From positions 1 to 20,458 of IMG/VR virus record IMGVR_UViG_3300025872_000393: 20,458 bases of DNA. One strand, 5' to 3'. This DNA is from a virus. The first letter of the stretch is position 1. Every line of letters starts with the position of its first letter. The position numbers were made by a program, and so were the translations under genes. The notes under the pieces were generated by a model. It saw nothing but the letters and a program-made list of their open reading frames with translations, ran no database searches and was not told the DNA's origin. This document shows, piece after piece, positions 3,603-11,558 of this stretch.

Positions 3603-4088
3603 ATGAAGCGCAGCCATAAGCTCAGGGCCATGGGTGACGTGCAGGCGGTGGTGGACCGGGCGCCGGACCTGAGTGCTGCCGCGCGCGAGCTGGGTGTCGA
3701 CCGCTCCACCATCACCCGGTGGATGCAGCGCGGCAAGCTGCGGGCGAAACCACCCGCGCCCCTGCGCGAGGGACAGGCGCCGCCGCCCCCGCCGACGTCC
3801 AGCGACTGGACGGGCTGGGCGGACGCCGTGCGGCACGCCTACACGTTGAGCGAGACCGACCTGCAACTGGTCGGGCTTGCGGAGAAGGCGCTCGGCCTGG
3901 CGTATGGCGCGGAGTCGGCGCCGCTGGTCGTGCTGGCCGCGATGACCAAGTTTGGCGGGCTGGTGCGGCAGCTCAACCTGCAAGCGTCGGCGTCCGCGCC
4001 GGCCGGTCAGCCTCAGGCCCGCGTGTCCACGCGCGCGTCGGTCAGACCCACGGCTGATCCGCGCGCCATCCTCATGGCGGTCAAGTGA
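3603..4088 (+). CDS. terS: Terminase small subunit (P27-like)
   Basis: A 161-aa protein. Residues 22-46 form a clear helix-turn-helix (DLSAAARELGVDRSTITRWM), which in small terminases recognises the packaging site. A Pro-rich linker (about 57-66) follows, then a helical segment (WADAVRHAYTLSETDLQLVG) and further helices to about residue 130. That resembles the oligomerisation region of the P27 family. The C-terminus is basic and Ala/Pro-rich. The ATG at 3603 has only a weak AGG upstream; the in-frame ATG at 3630 would remove nine residues and is an alternative. The end overlaps the TerL start by four bases (GTGA). The adjacency of HNH and TerL makes the call firm even though small subunits diverge quickly. 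Confidence 0.8.
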   Translation: MKRSHKLRAMGDVQAVVDRAPDLSAAARELGVDRSTITRWMQRGKLRAKPPAPLREGQAPPPPPTSSDWTGWADAVRHAYTLSETDLQLVGLAEKALGLAYGAESAPLVVLAAMTKFGGLVRQLNLQASASAPAGQPQARVSTRASVRPTADPRAILMAVK

Positions 4089-6748
4089 TCCTCACGGTTC
4101 CCGTCGACACGGTGCTGTACCCGACGCTGGGGCCGGCGGTGTGCGCGTTCATCGAGGAGCGGCTGGTGTTCGGCCCTGGCGACCTGCGTGGCCAGCCAGC
4201 CGTGCTCGACGACGAGAAGCGCGCGCTGGTCTACCGCATGTACGAGATCTACCCGCAGGGGCATCCGCTGGCCGGTCGGCGCCGGTTCAAGCGGGCGGGC
4301 CTGTCGTTGCCCAAGGGGCTCGCGAAGACGGAGCTGGCCGCGTGGATTGCGATCTGCGAGCTGCACCCCGAGGCGCCCGTGCGGTGTCTGGGCTGGACCG
4401 AGGACGGCGAGCCGATCGGCGGGCCGGTGACGGACCCATATATCCCGCTGGTGGCGTACACCGAAGAGCAAAGCGATGAGCTCGCCTACGGGGCGATGCG
4501 CGTCATCATCGAAGAAGGCCCGTGCGCGAAGGACTTTGACGTCGGGCTGGAGCGGATTCAGCGCATCAACGGCGACGGTAAAGCCGTGTCCCTGAGCTCG
4601 AGTCCCAACGCACGCGATGGTGCGCGCACGACCTTCTGCGTTATGGATGAGCCGCTGGCCATCGATACGCCGGTGATGACGACAGAAGGCTGGAAGACGA
4701 TGGGAAGCATCGTCGACGGCGACTACGTCTATGGCAGGGATGGCCATCCCGTGCGTGTCCTTGGCGGGTCGGACGTCCACGAGGGACGCCCCTGTTTCCG
4801 AGTCACCCTGTCAGATGGCGACACGATCGTCACTGACGAACGACACCGCTGGAAAGCGATGTCCTCCAGCAATCCAGGTGTCGAGCGCGTTGTGACGACG
4901 CTGGAGATGTTCGAGGCGGGCACTGATACGCCTCACGGAAAGCGATGGAGGCTACCGAGAGCGTCCGGCTATGACGGTGTGACGCAGGATCTGCCGATTG
5001 ACCCGTATGTGCTGGGGCTCTGGTTGGGCGACGGTGACGCCCGCAACGCGACGATTGCGGTAGGCGAGGCCGACCTTGTCGACACGCGTCGACAGATAGA
5101 AGCGTGTGGCTATGTGGTCACTCAGTGCGTGACTGGAGAAGGGCGCACGCCGATGCTGTATGTCACCGTGCCAGATGCGCGTCACAGCGGCTGGGCGGTC
5201 GCGCAGGGCGGACAGTCATCGGCGCGGTCACTCGTCGGCCAGTTGCGACACTTGCACCTGCTGACCAACAAGCACATCCCTGCTGTCTACATGCTTGCGG
5301 ATCGGTCGCAGCGATTGGCGCTGCTACAAGGGCTGATGGACGCAGACGGTTACACCAATAGCACGGGCACCTGTACCTTTGTGCAGGGGCGTCACGCTCT
5401 GGCCGAGCGTGTGTGTGACCTCGTGCGGTCCCTCGGGACGCCGGCGCGCATCTGTCAGCGCAAGGACGAGCGGTCGCGGACGGGCTACACCTACAAGGTG
5501 CATTTCACGCCCAAGTATTCGCCGTTCAGATTGCCACGCAAAGCGGCGCGGTGTCCTGGCCGTTCGCTGGCGTGTGAACGCTGGCCGCTTGTGGTGAGTA
5601 TTGAGCGTTGCGAATCGGTGCCGGTGCGGTGCATCGCGGTAGATTCGGACGATCATCTGTTCCTTGCCGGTCGTGGCTTACGGTTGACGCATAACACGCA
5701 TTGGTGGACCCTGCCGCGACTGAAGCAGGCCCACCAGACGATGCAGAACAACCTGGCGAAGCGCAAGCTGGCCGATCCGTGGATGCTGGAAACCACCACG
5801 GCTCCGGAACCCGGTACCGGGTCGGTGGCCGAGGCCACGATGGACTACGCCAAGGCTGTCGACGATGGCCATATCACCGACAGCGCGTTGTTCTTCTTCC
5901 ACCGGCAAGCCAGCGATAGCCACGACCTGACCACACCGGACGGCGTGCGGGCCGCCATTATCGAGGCATCAGGCCCCGCGGCGGCGTGGCGGGATATCGA
6001 CGCCATTGCGGGGCTGTGGGCAGACCCGACGACCGACAAGGCCTACCTCGAGCGCGTCTGGTGCAATCGGTTGGTGAAGGGCGCGACCCAGGCGTTCGAT
6101 GTGGTGCGCTGGCAGGAGCTGACGCGGCCGTCACCGGTGCAGCCAGGCGATCTGATCGTGCTGGGCTTCGACGGTGCCATGTTCTTCGACTCCACCGCGT
6201 TGGTGGCCACGCACGTTGAAACGGGTTTTCAGTGGCTGTTGGGTCTGTGGGAGCGGCCCAAGTTACTGCCGACCGACCAGACCTGGCAGGTGCCTGCGCA
6301 CGACGTCGATCGTGCGGTGCGAGACGCGTTCGAGGTCTATGACGTGTGGCGCATGTACGCCGATCCGGCCTATTGGCAGTCCTGGCTGGCGACGTGGCGC
6401 GGCGCCTTTGGTGACGAGCGCGTCATCGAATGGTTGACCACGCGGCGATTGCAGATGGCGCGCGCGATCGAGGGCTTTACCACGGCCATCGCCACCGGGA
6501 CGCTCTCGCATGAAGGGCACAAGGACGTCACGCGCCACATCGCCAACGCGCGCCGGGAAGACCTGAAGGGCTATCGCGACGAGCAGGGACGTCCGCTGTG
6601 TTTGATTCGGAAAGAGCGACCCGACTCTCCGTTGAAGATGGATGCGGCCATGGCATCGATTCTGAGCTGGGAAGCGCGCACGGATGCGATCGCGGCCGGC
6701 GCGCACTCGGTGATGGCGGCAGGTTCTGTGGAGGCGTGGATAGCATGA
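4085..6748 (+). CDS. terL: Terminase large subunit, interrupted by an intein
   Basis: An 887-aa precursor with a GTG start (GTGA overlap with TerS). Removing the intein (residues 190-537) leaves 539 residues, the usual TerL length. The ATPase has a variant Walker A, LSLPKGLAKTE (73-83), with Ala where Gly is normal before K81-T82. Its Walker B is FCVMDE, with D188 and the catalytic E189. After the intein the sequence resumes with THWW and then ETTTAPEPGTGSVAE, typical of HK97-type terminases. The RNase H-like nuclease has LGFDGAMFFDSTAL (D696, D702) and a late KMDAAMAS (D853). The protein would pump and cut concatemeric DNA at the portal. The intein splits the ATP-hydrolysis site, so the unspliced precursor should be inactive. 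The TGA overlaps the next ATG (ATGA). Confidence 0.95.
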   Translation: MILTVPVDTVLYPTLGPAVCAFIEERLVFGPGDLRGQPAVLDDEKRALVYRMYEIYPQGHPLAGRRRFKRAGLSLPKGLAKTELAAWIAICELHPEAPVRCLGWTEDGEPIGGPVTDPYIPLVAYTEEQSDELAYGAMRVIIEEGPCAKDFDVGLERIQRINGDGKAVSLSSSPNARDGARTTFCVMDEPLAIDTPVMTTEGWKTMGSIVDGDYVYGRDGHPVRVLGGSDVHEGRPCFRVTLSDGDTIVTDERHRWKAMSSSNPGVERVVTTLEMFEAGTDTPHGKRWRLPRASGYDGVTQDLPIDPYVLGLWLGDGDARNATIAVGEADLVDTRRQIEACGYVVTQCVTGEGRTPMLYVTVPDARHSGWAVAQGGQSSARSLVGQLRHLHLLTNKHIPAVYMLADRSQRLALLQGLMDADGYTNSTGTCTFVQGRHALAERVCDLVRSLGTPARICQRKDERSRTGYTYKVHFTPKYSPFRLPRKAARCPGRSLACERWPLVVSIERCESVPVRCIAVDSDDHLFLAGRGLRLTHNTHWWTLPRLKQAHQTMQNNLAKRKLADPWMLETTTAPEPGTGSVAEATMDYAKAVDDGHITDSALFFFHRQASDSHDLTTPDGVRAAIIEASGPAAAWRDIDAIAGLWADPTTDKAYLERVWCNRLVKGATQAFDVVRWQELTRPSPVQPGDLIVLGFDGAMFFDSTALVATHVETGFQWLLGLWERPKLLPTDQTWQVPAHDVDRAVRDAFEVYDVWRMYADPAYWQSWLATWRGAFGDERVIEWLTTRRLQMARAIEGFTTAIATGTLSHEGHKDVTRHIANARREDLKGYRDEQGRPLCLIRKERPDSPLKMDAAMASILSWEARTDAIAAGAHSVMAAGSVEAWIA
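4652..5695 (+). mobile_element. Class 3-type intein with LAGLIDADG endonuclease in TerL
   Basis: A 348-residue in-frame insertion between TerL E189 and the Thr of THWW. Residue 1 is Pro (PLAIDTPV), not the Cys/Ser/Ala of class 1. Block B is VTDERHRW with H65 and W67. Block F is VRCIAVDSDDHLFLAG with C327. The end is LTHN (T346, H347, N348), followed by extein Thr +1. A Pro at position 1 with the Trp/Cys/Thr triad matches class 3 inteins, described for the mycobacteriophage Bethlehem DnaB intein, in which the block F Cys acts as first nucleophile. The endonuclease motifs are VLGLWLGDGD (120-129) and LLQGLMDADG (224-233), both with their acidic residue, so homing may still be active. Codon use looks somewhat more relaxed than in the flanking TerL. 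Confidence 0.92.
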
Positions 6749-6994: not shown

Positions 6995-8299
6995 GTGCAG
7001 CATTTCTTTGCAGACATTCCCGGCTGGTGTGATTTCGCGGACCTCTACCGCGATGTGGTCCGTGCGCTGCCAGACGGAGCCCGGATCGTCGAGGTGGGCG
7101 TCTGGCAAGGCCAGAGCACGGCGGCCCTCGGCGTGGAAATTGCCAATAGCGGGAAAGCCATCCGCTTGGATGTGGTCGATTGGTTCCAAGGGTCGCCGAA
7201 CGACGGACTCGACTCGCTGGATGATCAGCGCGCGCGGTTTGACCGGCACGTCGCGCCCATTCGGCACCTGATCCGTGACGTTCACGCCGAACGGTCCACC
7301 GAGGCGGCACGGCACTACCCGGACGGCTCGCTCGACTTCGTCTTCATCGACGCGGCGCACGACTCGGCGTCGGTGCTGGCGGACCTCAACGCTTGGTATC
7401 CCAAAGTTAAGCCTGGCGGCCTCTTGGCCGGCCATGACCATGACTGGGCCACCGTGCAGCAGGCGCTGTACCCGTGGAGCTGGCAGCACGGCGTGTCCGC
7501 ACAGCCGGTCTCGAGACGGTGCTGGCAGGTACGCAAGCCGGTGCCGATCGATCCGGCGCTGTTGGTCACGCCTGCGGGAGACCGGCGGTGTGTGGTGGCG
7601 GTCTGCAGCAACGAGCGGACGGTCTATCGGCAGACGGCGGCGAGTCTGTTGTCACTGGGCTGGGGTGCGCGGGTCACCGAGGCGGCGGCGCGGCATGGCT
7701 TCGTGGATGTCTCGGTGACGTGGGAGAGCAAAGCGCTCCTCGTCTCGGACCTGCGGAACCGCGTGGCCACGATGGCGCGCGGACTGCACGCCTCGCATAT
7801 TTTGTTTTTGGACGCCGACATGACCTGGCCGAGCGATGTGCTCGACCGGATGCTGGCGCATCACGACCAGGGCATCGTGTCTGGCCTGTATCACCTGAAG
7901 AACTGGCCGCACTGGCCGGTCGCGTTGAATCAGCCCACGGCGAACACGGCCACCACCAGCGTGGACTACCACTACGACACGGCCGTGCATGAGCAGACGG
8001 GCCTGGTACGTGAGGCACTGGTGGGCATGGGCTGCACGCTGGTGCCGACGGTGATCTTCGAGGCCATGCCGCAGCCGTGGTTCGAGTATCGCCAGAATAT
8101 GCATGGTGCCTGGGCGGTCACGGAAGACGTGCCGTTCTGTGAGAAGGCCGCGGCGCTGGGTGTCCCGATCTGGGTCGACCCGAGCGTGAAGTGCCGGCAT
8201 ATCGGGGCCGATCCGGTCGGCGAGGCGCATTACGAACGCGCGCGCGTCGAACTGCACATGCTGGATCAACTGCGCACGCGCGAGGCGGTGCCCGCATGA
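6995..8299 (+). CDS. Methyltransferase-glycosyltransferase fusion protein
   Basis: A 434-aa protein with GTG start; the frame is closed upstream at 6947 and holds no ATG or other GTG between. Residues 1-180 are a class I SAM-dependent methyltransferase of the Methyltransf_24 type: motif I IVEVGVWQGQST (31-42), an acidic LDVVDW after strand 2 (58-63), FIDAAHD (117-123), KPGGLLAGHDHDW (139-151). From about residue 197 a GT-A glycosyltransferase-like domain starts (RRCVVAVCSNERTVYRQTA). It has a DxD-type motif in ILFLDADMTWP (D273, D275) and a later VGMGCTLVPTVIF segment with acidic residues (TEDVPFCEKA) as in family-2-like enzymes. The substrate is unknown; capsid or tail glycan, or DNA, are all possible. 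It sits inside the packaging/head operon and its stop overlaps the portal ATG (ATGA). Confidence 0.8.
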   Translation: MQHFFADIPGWCDFADLYRDVVRALPDGARIVEVGVWQGQSTAALGVEIANSGKAIRLDVVDWFQGSPNDGLDSLDDQRARFDRHVAPIRHLIRDVHAERSTEAARHYPDGSLDFVFIDAAHDSASVLADLNAWYPKVKPGGLLAGHDHDWATVQQALYPWSWQHGVSAQPVSRRCWQVRKPVPIDPALLVTPAGDRRCVVAVCSNERTVYRQTAASLLSLGWGARVTEAAARHGFVDVSVTWESKALLVSDLRNRVATMARGLHASHILFLDADMTWPSDVLDRMLAHHDQGIVSGLYHLKNWPHWPVALNQPTANTATTSVDYHYDTAVHEQTGLVREALVGMGCTLVPTVIFEAMPQPWFEYRQNMHGAWAVTEDVPFCEKAAALGVPIWVDPSVKCRHIGADPVGEAHYERARVELHMLDQLRTREAVPA

Positions 8300-9564
8300 C
8301 GTGGTGGGATCGTCTGCGGGGACGCGCGCCGAAGCCAGAGCGGCGCGGCACGTTGGCGGAAGTGGATTTCTGGCTGCGCGACGGCATGGGCAGCGCCGTG
8401 GCGGCCGGCGTGGAGGTCACGCCGACCACCGCGCTGAGCGTGCCGGACATCTACGCCTGCATCAATGTGCTGGCCGAAGATGTCGGACGGTGTCCGTTGA
8501 AGCTGCGCGCCAAGCGACCCGATGGCGACTTGGCGGATGCGGTCGATCACTATCTCTGGGAGATCCTCCACGATCTGCCCAACCCGGAAATGACTGCGAT
8601 GCAGTTCCGCGCGCGTCTGACGCGCGACCTGCTGGCGCACGAAGTGGCGTATGCCGAGATCGTGCGAAAGCCCAACGGGACGGTCCAGGCGCTCTGGCCG
8701 CTGGACCCGACACGGATGGCGGTCGATCGGGATGCGCTGAATCGCAAGCGCTACACCTATCGCCTGACGGCTGGGGTGCAGACGTGGATCTTTGATCCGG
8801 ATACGCCACCGCTGCTGGAATTGCGGCACCCGTCACCCATCCACCAGTGCCGCGACCTGATCGGTCTGGCGCTGGCGCTGGATCGCTACGCGGGCAAGTT
8901 CTTCGCCAACGGCGCGCGGTTGTCGGGCTTGCTCATGGCGAAGACGGGGCTGAAGCCGGACCAGCGTCAGAACATCAGCGAGATGTTCACGAAACTCCAC
9001 AGCGGCGTCGAAAATGCGCACAAGGTGGGCGTGCTGGAAGGCGACCTCGAATTCAAGCCCCTGACGAGCCCGAATAACGAAGCGCAGTTCAACGAGACGC
9101 GCAAAGTGATTCGGTCGATGATTGCCGGCACGTTCCGCGTGCCGCCGCACAAGATCGGTGACCTCGACCGCGCGACGTTCTCGAATATCGAGGCGCAAGA
9201 TCGCGATTATGTGAACAGCGGGCTCGACCCGCTTCTGGTCTTGTGGGAGCAATGCCTCCGTCGGGATGTGCTCACGACGCGACAGTATCCGCGCTACCAG
9301 GCCATCTTCGACCGTGAGGCGCTGATTCAGGCGGACGCGCAAAGCCGCGCCGAGTCGTTGGCGATCGGTCGCCAGAATGGCTGGTGGTCGGCCAACGACG
9401 TGCGGCGCAAGCTGCACGAGAACCCGATCCCGGCGGACCTGGGCGGCGATCTGTATCAAATGAACGGCAACATGATCCCGTTGACCGGCGCGCCCGACGC
9501 GGCGGACCCGACGCCACTGGACACTCCGGAGCCGGCCGATGCGCCGGGCCAGCAGGTGATGTGA
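8296..9564 (+). CDS. Portal protein (HK97 family)
   Basis: A 422-aa protein; the ATG at 8296 overlaps the upstream stop (ATGA). An in-frame GTG-type opening at 8191 would lie inside the upstream gene and is rejected. Typical portal signatures are seen: SVPDIYACINVLAEDVGRCP in the first 70 residues, then LPNPEMTAMQFRARL, AYAEIVRKPNGTVQALWPLD (wing/stem start), and NNEAQFNETRKVIRSMIAGT followed by FRVPPHKIGD, RATFSNIEAQ and LWEQCLRRDVLT. The C-terminal about 30 residues are Pro/Asp/Ala-rich and probably disordered. Twelve copies would form the ring through which TerL pumps DNA and to which the connector protein binds. The length and the protease gene directly after (TGATG overlap) are standard for HK97-type phages. 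Confidence 0.95.
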   Translation: MTWWDRLRGRAPKPERRGTLAEVDFWLRDGMGSAVAAGVEVTPTTALSVPDIYACINVLAEDVGRCPLKLRAKRPDGDLADAVDHYLWEILHDLPNPEMTAMQFRARLTRDLLAHEVAYAEIVRKPNGTVQALWPLDPTRMAVDRDALNRKRYTYRLTAGVQTWIFDPDTPPLLELRHPSPIHQCRDLIGLALALDRYAGKFFANGARLSGLLMAKTGLKPDQRQNISEMFTKLHSGVENAHKVGVLEGDLEFKPLTSPNNEAQFNETRKVIRSMIAGTFRVPPHKIGDLDRATFSNIEAQDRDYVNSGLDPLLVLWEQCLRRDVLTTRQYPRYQAIFDREALIQADAQSRAESLAIGRQNGWWSANDVRRKLHENPIPADLGGDLYQMNGNMIPLTGAPDAADPTPLDTPEPADAPGQQVM

Positions 9565-10145
9565 TGGACACTGAGCGACGGACACTCACGGCTCCCGTTG
9601 AAGTACGCGCCGACGCGACCACGCCGGTGGCGCTGGTGGGCTATGCCGCGCTGTTCGATACGCCGACCGAGATCGCGGGCCTCTTCGAGGAGCGCATCGC
9701 GCCTGGCGCGTTCGCGGACGCGGTGGCTCGCGATGACGTGCGCGCGTTGTTCAACCATGATGCGAACTACGTCTTGGGGCGTAATACCTCTGGCACCTTG
9801 ATCCTGCGCGAAGACCCGCGCGGTCTGCGGTATGAGATCACGCCGCCGGATACCCAGTGGGCGCGCGATCTGCTCGTCAGCGTCCAGCGGGGGGACATTT
9901 CGCAGTCGTCGTTTGCGTTCGCGGTTGATGAGGAAAACTGGGATTACCCCAAAGGCGCGATGCCGGTCCGCACGATCACGCGGGCGCGGCTCTACGACGT
10001 CTCGCCGGTGACGTATCCCGCCTATGAGTCGACGACCGTCTCGGCGCGGAGTCGCGCGGCGGCACAGCGGGCGACAGAGGCGTGGCAGGTCGAGATGGAA
10101 CTGGCGCGGGAGCGATGCCGACTGATCGACGCGTCGACGCGATGA
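9564..10145 (+). CDS. Prohead protease (HK97 type, peptidase U35)
   Basis: A 193-aa protein from the ATG at 9564, which shares one base with the portal stop. A longer in-frame opening at 9384 overlaps the portal and is not used. Family motifs are clear: VGYAALFDTPTEI near the N-terminus, FEERIAPGAFADAV, ALFNHDANYVLGR with catalytic H65, GDISQSSFAFAV with the nucleophile at S116, and ARLYDVSPVTYPAYESTTVS near the end of the core. The last 40 residues are helical and basic. The enzyme is packed in the prohead and trims the N-terminal delta domain of the capsid protein. The capsid gene here has such a domain and no separate scaffold gene is seen. Confidence 0.95.
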   Translation: MDTERRTLTAPVEVRADATTPVALVGYAALFDTPTEIAGLFEERIAPGAFADAVARDDVRALFNHDANYVLGRNTSGTLILREDPRGLRYEITPPDTQWARDLLVSVQRGDISQSSFAFAVDEENWDYPKGAMPVRTITRARLYDVSPVTYPAYESTTVSARSRAAAQRATEAWQVEMELARERCRLIDASTR

Positions 10146-10385: not shown

Positions 10386-11558
10386 ATGGCTCAGGAACTT
10401 CGCGACCAGCGCGCCAAGCTCGTTCACGATTGGCGCCAGATTCTCGACAAGGCTCAGGCCGAGCAGCGTGCGCTCTCGGTGGACGAGCGCACCCAGATCG
10501 AGAAGATCGAATCCACCATCGACGCCCTCAAGGCCACCATCGACGCCCGCGAAAAGCTCGACGCGCAGGAACGCGCCTTCGTGCCCGAGTCGCAGCGTGT
10601 GTCGGCGCCGGTGGTCCAGTCGGCCGTTGTCACGCCGGCGGACGCCTACCGGAGCGCGTTCTGGGCCTCGATGCGGACGGGCAGCATCGCGCCAGAAGTG
10701 CGCGACCACACGGTCGGCACCGACTCGCTGGGTGGCTACCTCGTGCCCGACGAGTTCCGGCGCACGCTCATCACCGCGCTGGACGAAGAGAACGTCATGC
10801 GTCGACTCGGCCAGGTGTTCACGACGCAGAGCGGGATCATGTCGATCCCGGTCAACAGCGCACACGGCTCGGCGTCGTGGAAGGCCGAGGAGGCCGCGTA
10901 TTCCACGAGCGACGAGACCTTCGCGGAAGTGCAACTGCGCGCCTACAAGGCCAGCGCCCTCATCAAGGTCAGCGAGGAGCTGCTGCACGACAGCGCGTTC
11001 CCGCTGGACTCGTTCCTCGCCACGGAGTTCGGCCGCCGCCTCGGCAAGCTCGAGGAAGAAGCGTTTGTCGTCGGCACGGGCTCGGGTCAGCCGACGGGTG
11101 TCGTCGGCGGTTCCACGCTGGGCACGACGGCGTCCGCGACCAACGCGATCACGGTCGACGAGGTCACCGACCTCTACTACGCCATCGGCCGCGCGTATCG
11201 CAGCCGCGCGTCCTGGCTGATGAAGGACTCGACGGTCAAGGCGCTGCGCAAGCTCAAGACTGGCGTGAGCGGCGACAATACCTACCTCTGGCAGGCCGGT
11301 CTCCGTGACGGGGAGCCGGACACCCTGCTCGGCCGTCCGGTCTACGTGTCGGAATTCATGCCGGCCATCGCGACGGGTGAGAAGGCGATCCTGTTCGGCG
11401 ACTTCTCCTACTACTACATCGGCGATCGCAACCAGATGTCGATGCAGCGCTTGGTGGAGCTCTACGCCGCCAATGGCCAGGTCGGGTTCCGTCAGTTCAA
11501 GCGCACGGACGGCAAGTTGGCGCTGGCCACCGCGATGTATCACCTGAAGCTGGCGTAA
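10386..11558 (+). CDS. Major capsid protein (HK97 fold)
   Basis: A 390-aa protein. Residues 1-60 are charged and helical (LRDQRAKLVHDWRQILDKA, DERTQIEKIESTIDALKATI), a coiled-coil delta/scaffold domain expected to be removed by the prohead protease. The cut is probably between about residues 70 and 105, where the sequence becomes Val/Ala-rich; the exact site cannot be read. The HK97-fold core begins near GGYLVPDEFRRTLI (116 onward) and includes SWKAEEAAYSTSDETF (E-loop region). A long spine helix runs through EELLHDSAFPLDSFLATEFG, then GTGSGQPTGVVGG (230 on) and a late beta region with LLGRPVYVSEFMP and ILFGDFSYYYIGDR. It is the main shell protein. Its start has no strong Shine-Dalgarno and lies behind a predicted hairpin. 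Confidence 0.95.
   Translation: MAQELRDQRAKLVHDWRQILDKAQAEQRALSVDERTQIEKIESTIDALKATIDAREKLDAQERAFVPESQRVSAPVVQSAVVTPADAYRSAFWASMRTGSIAPEVRDHTVGTDSLGGYLVPDEFRRTLITALDEENVMRRLGQVFTTQSGIMSIPVNSAHGSASWKAEEAAYSTSDETFAEVQLRAYKASALIKVSEELLHDSAFPLDSFLATEFGRRLGKLEEEAFVVGTGSGQPTGVVGGSTLGTTASATNAITVDEVTDLYYAIGRAYRSRASWLMKDSTVKALRKLKTGVSGDNTYLWQAGLRDGEPDTLLGRPVYVSEFMPAIATGEKAILFGDFSYYYIGDRNQMSMQRLVELYAANGQVGFRQFKRTDGKLALATAMYHLKLA

Follow-up and report, generated by a model that had tools for sequence, protein, structure and literature searches.

Inteins of the large terminase subunit (TerL) are known from mycobacteriophages, in which Kelley et al. (2016) recorded seven insertion sites; one of these, TerL1-e, lies in the Walker B motif and holds class 3 inteins (PMC5050341). 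The intein of Gaia gp2 belongs to this type and was seen to splice, and to do so quickly, in a reporter (PMC5050341). The combination of Trp B:12, Cys F:4 and Thr G:5 defines the class 3 intein; members of this class do not need a nucleophile at position 1, and usually have Ser or Thr as the +1 residue (PMC5222942; PMC3196547). In the TerL of HK97 the Walker B motif is D153-E154, and the mutation E154A abolishes both ATPase activity and packaging (PMC9410871).

Here, a window of 20458 bases, the record of an uncultivated phage with an HK97-like head gene cluster, was analysed around an insert in its terL gene, and our favoured reading, with a probability of about 0.93, identifies this insert as a homing intein of class 3 and of TerL1-e type. 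When translated, Gaia gp2 reads LNE/ALALDTP...THN/SHH (a slash marks a junction), which is the junction of the window. Both are class 3 inteins with a LAGLIDADG domain, inserted in the Walker B motif of the N-terminal TerL ATPase right after the glutamate, but the two inteins are only 39% identical and their TerL hosts 29%, and Gaia has Ala1 and Ser+1 where the window has Pro1 and Thr+1. The TerL of the Gordonia phage JonJames (OR159664), a protein annotated only as terminase large subunit, also has a class 3 intein with a LAGLIDADG domain, at the junction ADE/A...THN/THLW; this intein is 44% identical to that of the window, but begins with Ala1 and resides in a TerL of 34% identity. Since Gaia gp2 and JonJames share both junction and class with the window, its intein is a divergent new example of a kind already described, and as a single case it leaves the knowledge of inteins unchanged.

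The terminase gene and its insertion

The TerL precursor is encoded on the plus strand by an open reading frame with a GTG start at 4085-6748, corresponding to 887 amino acids. In translation its junctions read FCVMDE/PLAIDTP...RLTHN/THWW, and the insert occupies precursor residues 190-537 (4652-5695), that is 348 amino acids in frame with zero stops, starting with PLAIDTP and ending with LTHN. Joining of the exteins gives a TerL of 539 amino acids. The N-extein (4085-4651, plus strand, 189 amino acids counted from the GTG start) matches the PHROG 9 terminase large subunit family (E 6e-54), and alignment places Walker A around K77-K81 (PKGLAKT) and Walker B at TFCVMDE, the last residues of which are D188-E189. 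The C-extein (5696-6748, plus strand, 350 amino acids) starts with Thr+1 in THWW and comprises the coupling region (LETTT) and an RNase H-like nuclease whose aspartates D696, D760 and D853 (precursor numbering) are kept. The Pfam search did not recognise this TerL, unlike PHROG and HK97 TerL, to which it matched; the HK97 TerL structure 6z6d was found in the profile search (E 2e-8) and again in the fold search (E 1e-11). Together with K81 and D188-E189, the three aspartates complete the set of residues that marks an HK97-type large terminase.

E189 (4649-4651, plus strand), the -1 residue of the intein, is by motif the equivalent of HK97 E154, and K77, G78, K81, D188 and E189 are invariant in both TerL alignments, A5 (n=25) and A6 (n=19). 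The role of E154 in HK97 and the invariance of E189 thus place the intein, by motif equivalence, on the catalytic glutamate, and the precursor would presumably be unable to hydrolyse ATP before splicing. The AlphaFold model of the whole precursor (pTM 0.48) is too weak for active-site geometry. The initial annotation had located the insert directly after the Walker B glutamate, with Thr at +1, and translation and TerL alignment bear this out; it did not relate this site and class to the published TerL1-e type.

The genes around terL are those of a phage head cluster. A probable terminase small subunit (3603-4088) with weak helix-turn-helix matches precedes terL directly and overlaps its start, and the portal protein (8191-9564; Pfam Phage_portal, E 1e-87), the prohead protease (9384-10145; Pfam Peptidase_S78, E 1e-45) and the major capsid protein (10386-11558; Pfam Phage_capsid, E 4e-75) follow, all on the plus strand. 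A gene at 6995-8299, between terL and the portal gene, starts with a methyltransferase domain, while the C-terminal portion of its product is akin to a phage glycosyltransferase family. Searches of the records gave no close phage match to the window and no plasmid match to the start of the terS-terL region.

Since the source is an uncultivated metagenomic record, a chimeric contig or other assembly artefact may come to mind. However, the junction is in frame and falls at a conserved codon boundary, and the same arrangement recurs in independent contigs (L008, L009, L042, L062, L063 and others) and in the isolated phages JonJames, Gaia and Nebkiss, which leaves such an artefact with next to no probability.

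Splicing residues, fold and endonuclease

The insert (4652-5695, plus strand) was characterised by phmmer, alignments, trees, AlphaFold2 and Foldseek. Against the PDB, phmmer returned the class 3 DnaB inteins 6bs8 and 6own (M. smegmatis) and 6rix and 6riy (M. chimaera), with E values (8e-26 to 4e-24) that chance would not give; their alignments span intein residues 2-69 and 314-348. PI-SceI aligns to the middle (117-286). The N-terminal splicing (HINT) part extends over 4652-4981 (plus strand), as judged by alignment to 6bs8 residues 2-69 and with an approximate boundary towards the endonuclease, and holds Pro1 and the invariant block B residues His65 (4844-4846) and Trp67 (4850-4852). The C-terminal splicing part (5549-5695, plus strand), aligned to 6bs8 105-139, contains the block F residue Cys327 (5630-5632) and the block G residues Thr346-His347-Asn348 (5687-5695), all invariant in alignments A3 and A4.

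The complete class 3 triplet is consequently in place as W67 (Trp B:12), C327 (Cys F:4) and T346 (Thr G:5), and so are the remaining class residues H65 (His B:10), H347 (His G:6), N348 (Asn G:7) and Thr+1. Among aligned relatives His65, Trp67, Cys327 and the THN end do not vary, and the +1 residue is Thr or, less often, Ser. Position 1 is Pro and offers no Cys, Ser or Thr nucleophile; a start aligned to Cys or Ser would have spoken against the proposed class, and the alignment sets it at a non-nucleophilic position 1 instead. Trp67, Cys327, Thr346, His347 and Asn348 were all located where the initial annotation had them, and its assignment to class 3 holds, with every signature residue present and with end-to-end alignment to solved class 3 DnaB inteins.

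The AlphaFold2 model of the intein, built on 21 natural relatives, reached pLDDT 90 and pTM 0.89. Foldseek matched it along the whole chain to PI-SceI (E 2e-18) and also to I-DmoI (E 3e-6), and 6bs8, 6rix and 6riy, with TMt 0.80-0.85 (6bs8 0.85), indicate that its HINT fold is nearest to class 3 members. The DnaB inteins of M. smegmatis (DnaBi1, 6bs8) and M. chimaera (MchDnaB1, 6rix) share the splicing domain, W67, Cys F:4 and the THN end with the window (E 8e-26), but the mycobacterial DnaB class 3 inteins are mini-inteins without endonuclease that begin with Ala1 and reside in a helicase. PI-SceI (the VMA intein) resembles the window intein in combining HINT and a two-motif LAGLIDADG endonuclease in a single chain, yet it is a class 1 intein (Cys1) of the yeast vacuolar ATPase and only 15-16% identical. 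Taken together, the alignments and the predicted fold show the insert to be a real class 3 intein, and it is almost certainly functional in splicing.

Non-nucleophilic residues at position 1 are common to class 2 and class 3 (PMC5222942), and one may consider a class 2 route in which Thr+1 itself, and not Cys327, is the first nucleophile and attacks the N-terminal junction. Against this route stand the complete W-C-T triplet, the class 3 nature of the nearest relatives, and the loss of splicing upon C-to-A replacement at F:4 in each of the three class 3 inteins so examined (PMC5222942), and we regard it as extremely unlikely.

The middle of the insert is a LAGLIDADG homing endonuclease domain (4982-5548, plus strand; residues about 111-299, boundaries approximate) with matches to Pfam, PI-SceI and I-DmoI; the Pfam families LAGLIDADG_3 and Hom_end both score above cut-off in the intein. 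Block C carries the first motif, YVLGLWLGDG (5006-5035, plus strand), with the acidic D127 and with L121, G122, G126, D127 and G128 invariant. Block E carries the second, LLQGLMDADG (5321-5350, plus strand), with the acidic D230 and D232 and with L224, L225, G227, L228, D230, D232 and G233 invariant. The endonuclease accounts for roughly half of the inserted residues, is of the two-motif PI-SceI architecture and looks intact; the initial annotation had overlooked it.

Decayed class 3 inteins are known, Arth_1007 being one (PMC3196547) and an apparent remnant in our scans (L179) another, and an intein that no longer splices would mean a defective phage or a contig derived from a dead prophage. 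In the window, however, no catalytic residue for splicing is lost, the LAGLIDADG motifs keep both of their acidic residues, and the TerL halves are intact together with their active-site residues. Compared with the relative L008, moreover, codon positions 1-2 are 61-76% identical and position 3 is 27-28% identical, which indicates purifying selection in both halves. Because of the kept catalytic residues and this codon pattern, decay is very unlikely.

By analogy with characterised class 3 inteins, the homing class 3 intein proposed here would act as follows. The precursor would be translated in one piece of 887 amino acids, and Cys327, primed for the reaction by His65, Trp67 and Thr346, would attack the Glu189-Pro1 bond to form the class-specific branched thioester. 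Transesterification would pass the N-extein to Thr+1, Asn348 would cyclise with the help of His347 and release the intein, and an acyl shift would join E189 to T190 in a 539-residue TerL with an intact Walker B. The LAGLIDADG endonuclease would cut intein-free terL at or near GATGAG/ACGCAT, and repair of the cut allele would copy the intein into it, allowing it to spread among TerL lineages at one site.

Empty sites and movement between lineages

The closest intein-free TerL, that of L023, reads VMDETHWW without a gap and is 93% identical to the TerL of the window in protein and 84% in DNA. The site is likewise uninterrupted in GAL1, MacGully and WhoseManz (DE/TH) and in Sabbb (DE/PH), and the flanks are contiguous in about 24 intein-free viral contigs too. 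Retention of some of the 348 residues in intein-free homologues would have weighed against an intein; the entire insert is absent from them.

Scans of viral and genome contigs, together with phage records, yielded 154 distinct class 3 inteins, and 21 of these sit at the Walker B junction. Drawn from uncultivated and isolated phages and from bacterial genome contigs, these 21 mark the Walker B motif of TerL as a widely used class 3 site. In the intein tree (91 rows) Walker B-site inteins are separate from those of the P-loop (K/T), with 6 changes versus 19 in shuffles. All but one of the 21, the window's included, fall in one group (SH-aLRT 93) with some portal-site and other-site inteins, and the Gaia intein lies just outside the main Walker B-site group on a weakly supported branch.

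A TerL tree computed without the inteins gives a different picture. The sister of the window is the intein-free L023 (100/100), and this pair sits in a clade in which seven TerLs lack an intein and one carries it, whereas the intein tree puts the intein of the window together with the L008 and L009 inteins (100/100). AU tests in which each tree was made to adopt the grouping of the other rejected both constraints (p 0.002 and 9e-5), on groups picked after the trees were seen, and the window and most of its relatives are metagenomic fragments. Since the two trees conflict and both swaps are rejected, the intein has moved laterally between TerL lineages at one site, as judged from these sequences most likely by homing. 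GC3 is 0.72 in the intein and 0.83 in TerL. Nucleotide identity between the window and L023 along terL revealed no clear co-conversion tract at the insertion site, with 0.82 and 0.92 in the flanking 60-base blocks and 0.84 overall; homing is therefore deduced from the trees and the intact endonuclease and not directly seen.

Presence of the intein changes at least eight times on the TerL tree, so that gain, loss or both must be frequent and the intein is not trapped at this site. It had been proposed that an intein placed on a catalytic residue is hard to lose precisely, and this finds no support in the changes on the tree or in the 93%-identical intein-free sister. A link between splicing and packaging competence, proposed along with it, is conjectural. 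One may also speculate that conditional splicing, e.g. through oxidation of Cys327, gates or times DNA packaging, and that selection retains the intein as a regulator. The closest solved relative, M. smegmatis DnaBi1, belongs to a helicase with an intein that reportedly senses oxidative stress (PMC6195587), and mutation of the HK97 equivalent of the residue split off by the insert abolishes ATPase activity and packaging (PMC9410871). However, the Gaia intein at the same site splices quickly in a reporter (PMC5050341), the patchy presence and the nearest relative without intein fit a selfish element, and no feature of the sequence points to regulation. Such a regulatory role is unlikely. For the homing intein favoured here, the terL of the window and the 93%-identical empty allele constitute a clean pair for testing both homing and any effect of splicing on packaging.

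Related inteins in the scans

Several TerL genes in the scans hold more than one class 3 intein. L077:398-4555 (IMGVR_UViG_3300044762_000004) has three in one TerL open reading frame, and L078 (IMGVR_UViG_3300044514_000006), 99.85% identical to L077, has the same three-intein TerL. The first is a 133-residue mini-intein with a TGN end at Walker A (VMPQK/SGKGP), the second has 343 residues and is at SEEQ/TDN, and the Walker B intein has 341 residues at PQDE/CGLW with Cys+1, a residue which among class 3 inteins known in 2016 was found only in Bvi IcmO (PMC5222942). Minus the three inteins, the L077 TerL is 54% identical over 95% of its length to uninterrupted Arthrobacter phage TerLs. Two class 3 inteins per TerL, with inserts of endonuclease size, occur in L008:1354-5064 and L104:808-4596, at the Walker A Lys (K/T or K/S) and at the Walker B junction (DE/T or DQ/T).

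In L067-L072, L074, L076 and L079 the host of the class 3 intein is an HK97-type portal protein, interrupted at QGAGE/TRIAAAAGVPP, the portal identity of the group being read from the L072 sequence only. On the tree these portal-site inteins make up one clade within the TerL Walker B-site group, which looks like a jump of the intein between two adjacent head genes that have a similar Glu/Thr codon pair. The portal-site clade and the multi-intein TerLs may be of greater value than the window's intein on its own.

Position 1 varies with the -1 residue among the 154 class 3 inteins: after Lys it is Ala in 74 of 92 and Pro in 1 of 92, and after other residues it is Pro in 43 of 62. Only two independent pairs lie on supported branches, and the association is therefore inseparable from descent, which explains much of the pattern. 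Two apparent remnants were also recorded, a decayed class 3 intein with Arg at F:4 and an IHN end in Mycolicibacter arupensis (L179) and, in Nonomuraea zeae (L140), an intein of intact appearance with only 9 residues of C-extein after it.
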